Source: Maritimibacter sp. (lineage in GTDB: Bacteria; Pseudomonadota; Alphaproteobacteria; Rhodobacterales; Rhodobacteraceae). From it: a DNA stretch of 64,000 nt. Positions 20,789-26,209 of this stretch are shown in pieces. How positions within the stretch are numbered: the first letter of the stretch is position 1; each line of letters begins with the position of its first letter. Where the stretch lies: contig NZVC01000028.1 in the NCBI GenBank assembly GCA_002701395.1, positions 154,460 to 218,459 of the forward strand, written 5' to 3'. The position numbers and the translations under genes were made by a program. The notes under the pieces were generated by a model. The model was not told the origin of the DNA and searched no databases. It was given only the letters and a program-made list of their open reading frames with translations.

Positions 20789-21766
20789 TCAGAAGTCCCA
20801 GTCGTCGTCCTCGGTCGCCACGGTCTTGCCGATGACATAGCTCGACCCCGAGCCCGAGAAGAAGTCGTGGTTCTCGTCCGACCCGGGCGACAGCGCCGCC
20901 ATGATCGCCGGGTTAACGCGGGTCGCCTCGTCGGGGAACAGCGCCTCGAAGCCGAGGTTCTGCAGCGCCTTGTTGGCGTTGTAGTGCAGGAAATGCTTCA
21001 CGTCCTCGGTCAGGCCCAGCGGATCGTACAGCTGTTCGGTATAGCGCGCCTCGATGTCGTACAGGTCGAACAGCAGCGCGAAGGCGAAATCCTTCAGCTC
21101 GGTCCGTTCCTGTTCCGACAGCCGCTCGGCGCCGCGCTGGAACTTGTACCCGATGTAATAGCCGTGGATCGCCTCGTCGCGGATGATCAGGCGGATCAGG
21201 TCGGCGGTGTTGGTCAGCCGCGCGCGGCTGGACCAGTGCATCGGCAGGTAGAACCCCGAGTAGAACAGGAACGATTCAAGGAACACGCTGGCGATCTTCT
21301 TCTTCAGCGGGTTCGAGGTTGCGTCGTACTCGTCGAGGATCAGACGCGACTTGGCCTGCAGGTGCTCGTTCTCGGCGGACCAGCGGAACGCCTCGTCGAC
21401 CTCGGTGGTCTGGCACAGGGTCGAGAAGACCGACGAATAGGACCGCGCGTGCACCGCCTCCATGAAAGCGATGTTGGTCAGCACGGCTTCCTCGTGCGGC
21501 GTCACGGCGTCGGGCATCAGCGACGGCGCGCCCACGGTGTTCTGGATGGTGTCCAGCAGGGTCAGGCCGGTGAAGACGCGGATCGTCAGCTTCTGCTCTT
21601 CCTCGGTCAGCTGCGACCAGCTTTGAATGTCATTCGACAGCGGCACCTTCTCGGGCAGCCAGAAATTCACCGTCAGGCGGTTCCAGATCTCAAGATCCTT
21701 GTCGTCCTGCAGACGGTTCCAGTTGATCGCGCGCGGGACGGGGCGGGCGTGGGGCATGTCTTTCAT
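20789..21766 (-). CDS. nrdF: Ribonucleotide reductase class Ib, beta subunit
   Basis: 325 aa from ATG 21766; a longer frame upstream only translates palindromic repeats. Metal ligands are seen in [19 protein letters not shown] and [11 protein letters not shown]; the Tyr of [15 protein letters not shown] is the radical site. [17 protein letters not shown] near the N-terminus and [14 protein letters not shown] near the C-terminus match NrdF rather than NrdB. NrdF holds a dimanganese (or diiron) tyrosyl radical made with the help of NrdI, and passes it to NrdE to make deoxynucleotides without B12. Last gene of the riboswitch-led operon, 144 bases after nrdE. Confidence 0.96.
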
Positions 21767-21800
21767 CGTCTCGATCCTTCGGGTGCGAAAAGGTGCGTCA

Positions 21801-21907
21801 GGGTGCGCATGAATGCGCACCCTACGGGTGGCGACACCTTTGTCCGTGTAGGGTGCGCATTCATGCGCACCGCAGTCCGTGTAGGGTGCGCATTCCTGCG
21901 CACCCAC
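21801..21907. repeat. Palindromic repeats between nrdE and nrdF
   Basis: Three copies of a palindrome with arms GGGTGCGCA / TGCGCACCC lie at 21801-21822, 21851-21871 and 21884-21905. Copies 2 and 3 belong to a 33-bp direct tandem repeat (21842-21874 and 21875-21907) beginning GTCCGTGTAGGGTGCGCATTC; copy 1 has the opposite central orientation (GA instead of TC). A partial unit precedes at 21781-21800. They fill nearly the whole nrdE-nrdF gap and can form stable hairpins in the mRNA. They resemble REP-type extragenic palindromes. Confidence 0.85.
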
Positions 21908-21910
21908 GCA

Positions 21911-24043
21911 TTACAGCGTGCAGGACACGCAGCCTTCCACTTCGGTTCCCTCCAGCGCGGCTTGGCGCAGGCGGATGTAGTAGATCGTCTTGATCCCCTT
22001 CTTCCACGCGTAGATCTGCGCGCGGTTGATGTCGCGCGTGGTGGCCTCGGCGGGGAAGAACAGCGTCAGCGACAGCCCCTGATCGACGTGCTGGGTCGCG
22101 GCGGCGTAGGTGTCGATGATCGCCTCGGGCCCGATCTCGTAGGCGTCGCGGTAGTATTCGAGGTTGTCGTTCGTCATGAACGGCGCCGGGTAATAGACGC
22201 GCCCGATCTTGCCCTCTTTCCGGATCTCGACCTTCGACGTGATCGGGTGGATCGAGGAAGTGGCATAGTTGATGTAGCTTATCGAACCGGTCGGCGGCAC
22301 GGCCTGAAGGTTGCGGTTGTAGATCCCGTGGGTCTTCACCGCGTCCCGCAGGTCCGCCCAGTCGGCGCTGGTCGGGATCTCGATACCCGCCTTCTCGAAC
22401 AGCTCTGCCACACGGTCCGTTTCGGGCTGCCAGGTGCCGTCGACGTACTTGTCGAAGAAGCTGCCGTCCGCATAGGCGGACGTCTCGAAGCCTTTGAACT
22501 TCTTGCCCTTTTCCTTCGCCAGCGCGTTCGATGCCAGCAGCGCGTGATACAGCACGGTGCAGAAGTAGACGTTGGTGAAATCGACGCCCTCGGCGGACCC
22601 GTAATGGATGCGTTCCCGCGCGAGGTAGCCGTGCAGGTTCATCTGCCCCAGCCCGATGGCGTGGCTTTCGTCGTTGCCCTTTCGGATCGACGGGACCGAG
22701 TCGATGGCCGACATCTCGGACACCGCGTTAAGCGCGCGGATCGCGGTTCCGACCGACGCGCCAAGGTCGCCGCCGTCCATCGCACGGGCGATGTTCATCG
22801 AGCCGAGGTTGCAAGAGATGTCGGTGCCCATCGAGGAATAGGACAGGTCCTCGTTGAACTCGGACGCTTCGTTGACCTGCAGGATCTCGGAACACAGGTT
22901 CGACATAGCGATACGGCCCGCGATCGGGTTCGCCTTGTTCACCGTGTCCTCGAACATGATGTAGGGATAGCCGCTTTCGAACTGGATCTCGGCGATCGTC
23001 TGGAAGAACGCGCGGGCGTTGATCTTCTTTTTGCGGATCTTCGGGTTGTCGACCATCTCGGCGTATTTCTCGGTGACCGAGATGTCCGAGAAGGGCACGC
23101 CATAGACCTTTTCGACGTCATGCGGCGAGAACAGGTACATATCCTCGTTCTTCTTCGCCAGCTCGAAGGTCACGTCGGGGATCACGACGCCAAGGCTCAG
23201 GGTCTTGATCCGGATCTTCTCGTCCGCGTTCTCGCGCTTGGTGTCGAGGAACCGCAGGATGTCGGGGTGGTGCGCGTTCAGATAGACCGCGCCGGCCCCC
23301 TGACGCGCGCCCAACTGGTTGGCGTAGCTGAAGGAATCCTCCAGCAGCTTCATCACCGGGATCACGCCCGAGGACTGGTTCTCGATCCCTTTGATGGGCG
23401 CGCCGTGCTCGCGGATGTTCGTCAGCATCAGGGCCACGCCGCCGCCGCGCTTGGACAGTTGCAGCGCCGAGTTGATGCCGCGCCCGATGCTTTCCATGTT
23501 GTCTTCCAGCCGCAGCAGAAAGCACGACACGAACTCGCCGCGCGCCTTTTTGCCGGCGTTCAGGAAGGTCGGCGTCGCGGGCTGGAAGCGACCGTCGAGG
23601 ATCTCTTCCATCAGCCGCATCGCCAGCGCCTCGTCACCCTGCGCCAGCGTCAGCGCGTTCATCACGACGCGGTCTTCGTAGCGTTCAAGGTACCGTTTCC
23701 CGTCACGCGTCTTCAGCGTGTACGAGGTGTAGTATTTGAAGGCACCGAGGAAGGTCGGGAACCGGAACTTGCGGGCATAGGCCGCGTCCCAGATCGCGCG
23801 CTGGAAGTTCTTGGAATACTGGTCCAGCACCTCGGGCTCGTAATAGCCCTCTTCCACCAGATAGCCGAGCTTTTCGTCCAGCGAGTGGAAGAACACGGTG
23901 TTCTGGTTGACGTGCTGCAGGAAGTATTGTCGCGCCGCCATCCGGTCGGCCTCGAACTGGATGCGACCCTCGTCGTCATAGAGGTTCAGCATCGCGTTCA
24001 GCGCGTGGTAGTCGAGCGAAGCGGTCGCGGCGGTATCCAGCAT
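21911..24043 (-). CDS. nrdE: Ribonucleotide reductase class Ib, alpha (catalytic) subunit
   Basis: 710 aa from ATG 24043, with GAGG about 7 bases upstream; this gives the usual NrdE length. [16 protein letters not shown] and [16 protein letters not shown] near the start, [18 protein letters not shown] and [10 protein letters not shown] in the core, and the C-terminal GCVSC pair match class Ib NrdE. There is no N-terminal ATP-cone, in keeping with class Ib. It reduces ribonucleoside diphosphates with electrons from NrdH and a radical from NrdF. A terminator-like hairpin lies between its start and the MetE-like gene upstream. Confidence 0.96.
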
Positions 24044-24055
24044 GGTCGGTCCTCG

Positions 24056-24091
24056 TGGAAAAACAGGCGGGCCCGGATCGCTCCGGGCCCG
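24056..24091 (-). terminator. Terminator-like hairpin inside the operon, before nrdE
   Basis: CGGGCCCGGA (24068-24077) pairs perfectly with TCCGGGCCCG (24082-24091), loop TCGC. Read on the minus strand it is followed after four bases by TTTTT and then the nrdE ribosome site. It lies in the 56 bases between the MetE-like stop and the nrdE start, so it may reduce read-through into nrdEF or protect the 3' end of the upstream message. Confidence 0.6.
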
Positions 24092-25667: not shown

Positions 25668-25671
25668 GTCC

Positions 25672-25893
25672 TCAGGACAGCCGACCGATCATGTCGGGAC
25701 GGAAGCCGGCCCAGTGATCTTCACCGGCGACGACGACGGGCGCCTGCCGATAGCCAAGACCCTGCACCATTTCCATCGCGTCGGCGTCCTCGGTCAGGTC
25801 GACGATGGCGAAATCCAGGCCACGGGCTTCAAGCGCACGGGTGGTTGCGGTGCACTGCACGCAGGCGGGTTTCGAATACACGGTGATGGTCAT
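25672..25893 (-). CDS. nrdH: NrdH-redoxin (glutaredoxin-like electron donor)
   Basis: 73 aa from ATG 25893; the open frame extends upstream into the riboswitch, which cannot be coding. The redox pair is Cys11-Val-Gln-Cys14 ([15 protein letters not shown]), and QAPVVV holds the cis-proline. NrdH reduces the NrdE disulphide at the expense of thioredoxin reductase. First gene of the operon, about 50 bases after the riboswitch hairpin. Confidence 0.95.
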
Positions 25894-25944
25894 CTGCTCT
25901 GTCCCTTCAGGTCTGGTTGATGCGAACCGAAGGGGACACGGAAA

Positions 25945-26158
25945 CAGGCGCTTTGCGCCTGCCCACGCATCCGGGCCCTCCGCCGCGGTCGTCGTCTTTT
26001 CGCGCTTTGGCAGGTCTCCTGACTCCGCGGCTCGGTCGCTTTGGCCCGCCTTCCCGGTGTTGCCTGACACCAGTGGTTCCGGGCCTTGGCTCGCCGCTTA
26101 CAGTTGCGGGGGCAGTACCGGATTTTCACCGGTTTCCCTTTTCACCCCGAGTCACCTC
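25945..26158 (-). promoter_or_regulatory. Cobalamin (B12) riboswitch upstream of nrdHI-metE-like-nrdEF
   Basis: On the minus strand the conserved parts occur in order: AAAAGGGAAACCGGTG and ATCCGG, then CCGCAACTGTAAGCGG (26094-26109), CCACTGGTGTCAGGC, GGGAAGGCGGGCC and the B12 box AGTCAGGAGACCTGCC (26009-26024). TGACTC (26149-26154) and GAGTCA (26020-26025) can close the outer helix. Downstream, CAGGCGC-AAA-GCGCCTG (25945-25961) followed by TTT forms a hairpin about 50 bases before nrdH, the likely expression platform. Adenosylcobalamin binding is expected to switch the operon off. Confidence 0.93.
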
Positions 26159-26179
26159 GTGGGCACCAAAAGCAACACC

Positions 26180-26209
26180 ATATTGGGCCAGCCGCCCGAG
26201 GGCTGTCAA
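26180..26209 (-). promoter_or_regulatory. Sigma-70-like promoter of the riboswitch operon
   Basis: On the minus strand TTGACA (26204-26209) and CAATAT (26180-26185) are separated by 18 bases, ending about 20 bases before the aptamer begins. The -35 is perfect, the -10 matches in 4 of 6 positions, and the location is right for the riboswitch leader. Confidence 0.6.

Follow-up and report, generated by a model that had tools for sequence, protein, structure and literature searches.

A cobalamin riboswitch was found upstream of five genes that combine a class Ib ribonucleotide reductase with a short MetE-like homocysteine methyltransferase in Maritimibacter sp. (assembly GCA_002701395.1). These genes lie in the window, by which we mean the whole analysed stretch of 64,000 nucleotides (contig NZVC01000028.1, positions 154,460 to 218,459). 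They follow the riboswitch in the order nrdH, nrdI, metE-like, nrdE, nrdF, all on the minus strand (Table 1). The interleaved combination is real and rare, and its connection with B12 control rests on a linkage that recurs in relatives. It is fairly probable that the riboswitch and nrdHI-(metE-like)-nrdEF form a joint B12-shortage backup for the class II reductase NrdJ and for the methionine synthase MetH. When adenosylcobalamin is plentiful, the riboswitch would shut the genes off at the level of translation, via a stem over the nrdH ribosome-binding site. At low B12, NrdJ would give way to the class Ib reductase, and MetH to a short methionine synthase that is likely B12-free. The role of a backup comes naturally to NrdHIEF, whose cofactor is dinuclear manganese or iron instead of adenosylcobalamin.

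The riboswitch matches the RF00174 covariance model over model positions 1-189, that is, at full length, the cut-off being 31.5 bits. A preliminary description, made from the letters of the window, had proposed a well-formed cobalamin riboswitch at this place, and the significant match bears it out. The ligand and the direction of control would be those of the RF00174 family. The search of the whole genome yielded this site and a second one on contig C14, which precedes genes for CbtA, CobW, CobN and cob(I)yrinic acid a,c-diamide adenosyltransferase. Judging from cobN, cobW and the adenosyltransferase gene, the part of the pathway that was searched, the organism probably makes B12. Therefore "shortage" would refer to a lack of cobalt or to weak synthesis of the vitamin.

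Within the putative expression platform, CCCCTTC can pair with the Shine-Dalgarno-like GAAGGG upstream of the nrdH start, forming a predicted stem (25937-25929 / 25908-25901) that would cover the latter. Pairing of the Shine-Dalgarno box is 0.94 in the window leader vs 0.54 in shuffles, with 6 of 200 shuffles equally high. It is also above shuffles in the near relative Maritimibacter sp. ih11 (locus L014; 8 of 200 as high) and in L024 (0 of 200). Alignment of the expression platforms by MAFFT gave no clean common hairpin, and no promoter was found in a sigma-70 scan. The distance between the riboswitch and nrdH is 92-110 nt in the window and ten relatives, and 242-245 nt in three leaders from Rhizobiaceae. 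The likeliest mode of control would be translational shut-off, by analogy with the Caulobacter crescentus metE leader, for which it has been demonstrated (PMC6538847).

Table 1. Features of the riboswitch-led gene cluster, its surroundings, and the class II reductase loci of the same genome (G000)
Feature	Position	Strand	Evidence
sitABCD-type Mn/Fe ABC transporter, separate unit upstream of the riboswitch	26300..30001	(-)	ATPase NF011630 459.7 bits, cut-off 393
Cobalamin riboswitch aptamer, RF00174, complete	25992..26185	(-)	125.1 bits, E 5.3e-31
Putative expression platform, 98 nt, aptamer to nrdH start	25894..25991	(-)	predicted fold
nrdH, NrdH redoxin, 73 aa	25672..25893	(-)	TIGR02194 99.8 bits, cut-off 85.75
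nrdI, flavodoxin for class Ib cofactor assembly, 137 aa	25254..25667	(-)	TIGR00333 143.3 bits, cut-off 74.65
Short MetE-like homocysteine methyltransferase, PRK06520 family, 366 aa	24100..25200	(-)	NF005085 417.3 bits, cut-off 313
GC-rich hairpin, 10 bp, then CCTGTTTTTC, between MetE-like gene and nrdE	24068..24091	(-)	terminator scan
nrdE, class Ib ribonucleotide reductase large subunit, 710 aa	21911..24043	(-)	TIGR04170 1220.9 bits, cut-off 750
nrdF, class Ib ribonucleotide reductase small subunit, 325 aa	20789..21766	(-)	TIGR04171 480.6 bits, cut-off 355
Two class II ribonucleotide reductase loci	G000:C12:102239-103639; C48:23959-26100		

All five genes score above the curated NCBIfam cut-offs, in agreement with the one-strand series of nrdH, nrdI, a short MetE-like gene, nrdE and nrdF read earlier from the open reading frames. 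Clustering of NrdE, NrdF, NrdI and NrdH, all four above their cut-offs, assigns the reductase to class Ib. The genes start at positions 25893 (nrdH), 25667 (nrdI), 25200 (metE-like), 24043 (nrdE) and 21766 (nrdF), and the successive gaps are 4, 53, 56 and 144 bases. The gene order of L014 is identical, with protein identities of 87-97%. In L021 and L024 the stop codon of the MetE-like gene overlaps the start of nrdE, which favours a single message for both in these loci.

The same genome contains B12-dependent isozymes for both functions. The ribonucleotide reductase barrel was observed at three loci, namely NrdE and two class II enzymes, an NrdJ of 787 aa (TIGR02504 593 bits, cut-off 400) and an NrdJ of 1258 aa (PRK07562 2233 bits, cut-off 1737). 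MetH is encoded by two adjacent genes on contig C7 (353 and 905 aa; TIGR02082 1218 bits for the second gene), and its reactivation domain is present. A class II NrdJ and a MetH were what the preliminary description had predicted from the riboswitch-led genes; two of the former are thus present, and the latter is split. Its reading of the cluster as a one-transcript programme for B12 shortage is supported in part. The assembly is marked as 9.02% contaminated. Contamination as the source of the two-isozyme picture was rejected, since in Maritimibacter sp. ih11 (genome G198) a single contig carries the riboswitch operon, NrdE, MetH and a pair of NrdJ-like barrels, and MetE is absent. The same pair of NrdJ score bands is seen in many genomes of the family, among the matches listed.

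Linkage of the MetE-like gene to the riboswitch was analysed in 71 named loci, all of which were scanned with a sequence profile of the riboswitches. Sixteen of them were re-scanned with Rfam (nine riboswitch-led, seven not), and L014 was taken from the whole-genome search. Gene neighbourhoods of the relatives come from a codon-position caller, which called some antisense frames too. Ten of the 71 loci have a riboswitch-led MetE-like gene, in five gene orders. The interleaved order riboswitch-nrdHI-metE-like-nrdEF is found in L014, L021 (Pseudooceanicola nanhaiensis) and L024, and the order riboswitch-nrdHIEF-metE-like in L028 (Rhizobium oryziradicis) and L032 (Agrobacterium albertimagni). L055 has divergent riboswitch-nrdHIEF and riboswitch-metE-like units, and riboswitch-metE-like stands alone in L018, L043 and L071. 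Finally, L019 has riboswitch-metH1-metH2-metE-like, with about 500 nt and a possible small open reading frame (ORF) between the riboswitch and metH1. Among 198 genomes of the family, proteins of the MetE-like family (at least 40% identity over most of the length) occur in 17 and the interleaved order in two (G000, which is the window's own genome, and G118). Interleaving as the rule was therefore rejected. G208 and G118 are two handles of the same genome, as are G213 and G047.

The linkage supports, and does not prove, the view that a short methionine synthase has been recruited for B12 shortage, as far as gene context can tell. One could suppose instead that the riboswitch serves nrdHI (and nrdEF) only and that the MetE-like gene was inserted without a shared function, which would agree with the rarity of the interleaved order and with the hairpin after the MetE-like gene. 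However, the same two partners occur together in three separate gene orders, the MetE-like gene has its own riboswitch in L018, L043, L055 and L071, and it overlaps nrdE in L021 and L024 as described above. This explanation seems very improbable.

The reductase half of the cluster is ordinary: a riboswitch before a class I reductase is usual in those relatives that have one. The class I large subunit was found in at least 11 of 100 genomes of the family, and a riboswitch lies upstream of it in nine of these 11, both counts being among the matches listed. Here the class I assignment required a PF02867 score above 520 bits and was checked by NrdE alignment for the own genome, G002, G026, G076, G086 and G092; the NrdJ status taken from the family listing excludes G002 and G096. 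Both features were searched for in 30 genomes, and 15 of them have a class I reductase. It is preceded by a riboswitch in all 12 genomes with NrdJ and in none of the three without a full NrdJ (Fisher test 0.002, for genomes that are not a random sample). NrdJ was judged by PF02867 score and length, and the three genomes are G210 (weak partial match), G211 and G215. The class I reductases of G227 and G229 were left out of this count, and G227, G228 and G229 lay outside the whole-genome RF00174 search. According to Rodionov et al. 2003, the methionine synthase and ribonucleotide reductase isozymes that need no B12 are reportedly controlled by B12 elements. The nrd part of the cluster fits this rule.

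The methionine half required closer inspection of the protein. Its NF005085 score (Table 1) places it in the PRK06520 family of short MetE proteins; it misses the cut-off of the PRK06233 equivalog (300.5 vs 576 bits) and, as regards similarity to MesA, MesB and MesC, is far below those of the NCBIfam models PRK04326 and PRK00957. The nearest solved relative is 1YPX (residues 6-365, 328 bits, E 5.5e-97), which we take to be linked to YxjH, that is, a short MetE of the YxjG/YxjH type. The structure 3RPD is named as a MesD protein in PMC7857596, and the match to it has 27.5 bits only. The homocysteine and zinc residues used for comparison were those listed in the same paper. When aligned with the full MetE of G214, the protein retains the zinc ligands His, Cys, Glu and Cys and the homocysteine residues Ser, Glu and Asp. 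It has Phe at the Trp of the MLQWSF stretch of the G214 enzyme; in MetE this Trp stacks on the folate pterin. In the family alignment, the zinc ligands H235, C237, E270 and C332 are invariant in 81 of 81 rows, S15 and E62 are present in 80 of 81 rows, D185 in 80 of the 80 rows that have a letter, and Phe occupies position 141 in 77 of 81. The zinc and homocysteine residues are the residues of a MetE-type homocysteine methyltransferase. The protein is thus equipped for activating homocysteine and lacks the folate domain of MetE; methionine would be its product.

Two known enzymes were considered for the MetE-like gene and rejected. It is not MetE: PF08267, the N-terminal folate domain, had no match in the whole genome, and TIGR01371 scores 19.4 bits against a cut-off of 930. 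Nor is it MesD, given the low score to 3RPD and the lack of a PF08908 (MesX) match in the genome. MesX had no match in any of the ten searchable riboswitch-led genomes (the own genome and nine others), and it is present in 4 of the 33 genomes searched. MetE is absent from nine of ten searchable riboswitch-led genomes (the own genome included, L043 left out), with MetE present in G227. Since 28 of the 33 genomes of the same search lack MetE anyway, this absence is not diagnostic.

The tree of MetE-like proteins has 81 rows, L079 and L083 having been dropped as short. Riboswitch-led genes fall into three separate starred groups: a group of ten with the window, L014, L018, L019, L021 and L024; a group of five with L028 and L032; and a group of nine with L043, L055 and L071. 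The labels RSnrd and RSalone each need three changes (as few in 128 and 145 of 500 shuffles), the named groups being compared with each other only. In the NrdE tree (16 rows, read from the printed tree) interleaved operons are scattered among non-interleaved kin. A starred group (97/98) unites L024 with L145, L153, L154 and L157 and lies apart from the window and L014. The labels interleaved and trailing differ by one change in this tree, again with the named groups compared with each other only. Repeated insertion, loss and transfer are indistinguishable as the history of the interleaved operon.

Several observations weigh against a joint B12-shortage backup. The strongest is L019, where the MetE-like gene comes after metH behind a B12 riboswitch. 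Moreover, the core MetE-type enzymes that have been characterised in vitro, MesA and MesB, work with methylcobalamin (PMC7857596). Taken together, these two facts mean that a riboswitch is no proof of B12 independence, and because of MesA and MesB the B12 independence of the MetE-like enzyme is something we infer. The protein could then be a corrinoid-linked core synthase that takes the methyl group from a methylcobalamin protein (MetH or another one) and is made in B12 scarcity to exploit what little remains, the riboswitch controlling a B12-saving step. The missing folate domain and the Phe at the aligned MetE Trp would be in line with this. On the other hand, the gene is tied to a B12-free reductase in three gene orders, and the enzyme would be redundant, because MetH already moves the methyl group from its own corrinoid to homocysteine. 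We regard such a synthase as unlikely.

Further points against the joint backup concern the distribution of the gene. The MetE-like gene is not riboswitch-led in 61 of the 71 loci, including close kin with 81-84% identity (L015, L016, L017, L025), and each of the three tree groups also holds rows without a riboswitch. The own genome has a second PRK06520 member on contig C55 (G000:C55:36044-37150, L152; 67% identity), which has no riboswitch. No riboswitch was found in the 4-kb stretches around the class I reductases of G076 and G086, though both list NrdJ. A homologue of betaine--homocysteine methyltransferase in the own genome (L011, NF005718 593 bits) is of a type that could also make methionine without B12. 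The genome has in addition two PF02574 proteins (L012, L013), for which no NCBIfam match was observed at E 1e-20, and a distant PF01717 protein on contig C6.

The remaining adverse points concern regulation. The fold energy of the whole 98-nt leader stretch is ordinary (z -1.0), and in the other eight of 11 leaders the Shine-Dalgarno pairing is not clearly above shuffles (29 to 179 of 200 as high). The hairpin at 24091-24068 is a possible attenuator, which may split the transcript or lower nrdEF expression. The scan that detected it gave 8 sites vs 4.4 in shuffles, and in L014 the stem is conserved, unlike the T run. The nrdE-nrdF spacer (21767-21910) contains several palindromes of the GGTGCGCATGAATGCGCACC / GGGTGCGCATTCATGCGCACCC type, which argues against one transcript. 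Related palindromes are present in L014, and L024 has almost no spacer.

Another possibility is that the MetE-like protein serves in salvage, as a homocysteine methyltransferase that draws on an imported methylated compound and spares MetH only when this compound is present. TRAP-transporter-like genes (assigned by sequence look) are situated directly upstream of the C55, L042 and L045 members; in L019 and L071 they lie downstream of the riboswitch-led member, at a distance of about 1.5 kb. The absence of the folate domain would suit salvage as well. However, the surroundings (about 4 kb) of the riboswitch-led copies in the window, L014, L018, L028 and L055 showed no TRAP-like gene, and B12 control suits a general synthase better. 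A role in salvage is thus rather improbable. The gene preceding the C55 member looks like a TRAP transporter large subunit gene, and a TRAP-like gene is found 5.6 kb from the L043 copy.

The joint backup may be compared with several known systems. In those of Rodionov et al. 2003, a riboswitch reportedly likewise precedes a B12-free enzyme whose B12-dependent counterpart is encoded in the same genome; here, in contrast, the two functions are clustered and the enzyme for methionine is not MetE. The MetE of Caulobacter crescentus is full-length. According to PMC6538847, a B12 riboswitch of this bacterium exerts a dose-dependent translational shut-off of the B12-independent methionine synthase, and NrdJ and MetH are also present. 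According to the same paper, only metE and btuB carry B12 riboswitches there, and metE, unlike the gene described here, is not clustered with ribonucleotide reductase. In the MesD/MesX system of aerobic bacteria (PMC7857596), the enzyme likewise has the MetE catalytic domain only, with no folate domain; MesD needs neither 5-methyltetrahydrofolate nor cobalamin but requires MesX and oxygen. The window genome differs in having no MesX match and a protein with the low score to 3RPD given above. YxjH of Lactobacillus paracasei, a short MetE like the window protein, is called a B12-independent methionine synthase in PMC6004538; it is behind a methionine T-box, whereas the window gene is behind a cobalamin riboswitch. 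Finally, nrdHIEF operons of related Rhodobacteraceae have a B12 riboswitch with the same range of spacing to nrdH, 92-110 nt, but lack the MetE-like gene that the window has between nrdI and nrdE. We found no title in the literature describing the combination, which is not proof of its absence from print.

The sitABCD-type transporter upstream of the riboswitch may supply manganese, as the metal cofactor, to NrdF. Its subunits other than the ATPase are below the cut-offs of the metal-ABC models. Such a transporter is also found upstream of the riboswitch in L014.

Additional riboswitches were observed in the relatives. A cobalamin riboswitch precedes gbcA-gbcB-like genes (glycine betaine monooxygenase) next to riboswitch-nrdHIEF in L157:4103-6750 and L156:3594-6217. 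The gbcA- and gbcB-like proteins of L157 reach 499 and 373 bits, where the curated cut-offs are 670 and 500, and those of L156 were named by look. Another backup that needs no B12 may lie in the oxidative demethylation of betaine. Cobalamin riboswitches are also found upstream of the B12-dependent metH itself (L019:3366-7891, L156:6249-8201), and in G207:C2:664386-668943 a riboswitch is located about 3.5 kb upstream of a MetH reactivation domain on the same strand. In Rhizobium sp. SL86 (L148:420-7370), riboswitch-metE with a full MetE is followed by riboswitch-nrdH-nrdI-nrdE-nrdF within 7 kb, and thus both functions also occur side by side where the methionine enzyme is a true MetE; the nrdE frame of this locus looks broken or partial. 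Downstream of the MetE-like gene in L022 (9501-9547) and L023 (9495-9541), the opposite strand has a guanidine-II riboswitch, with which a gene for a small multidrug-type membrane protein (named by look) begins.

The methionine half is the interesting part of the cluster, since its gene context suggests that a short MetE family acts when B12 is scarce. Methionine synthesis by short MetE homologues of marine bacteria, whether of the PRK06520 family or another, is called "questionable" in PMC12478193, according to which they are perhaps made only under cobalamin limitation. A "Mes-like" mutant of P. inhibens, whose gene may or may not belong to PRK06520, still showed lag-phase shortening (PMC12366255). 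The riboswitch linkage is genomic evidence for such a condition in the present family, and it names hosts, e.g. Pseudooceanicola nanhaiensis DSM 18065 and Rhizobium oryziradicis N19. Tentatively, the riboswitch-led PRK06520 proteins could be a further family of folate-domain-free methionine synthases, independent of cobalamin and of MesX and repeatedly tied to class Ib ribonucleotide reductase in Alphaproteobacteria as a single B12-independence module. If so, Alphaproteobacteria would have one more methionine route that is free of both B12 and the MetE folate domain, which would bear on who depends on B12.

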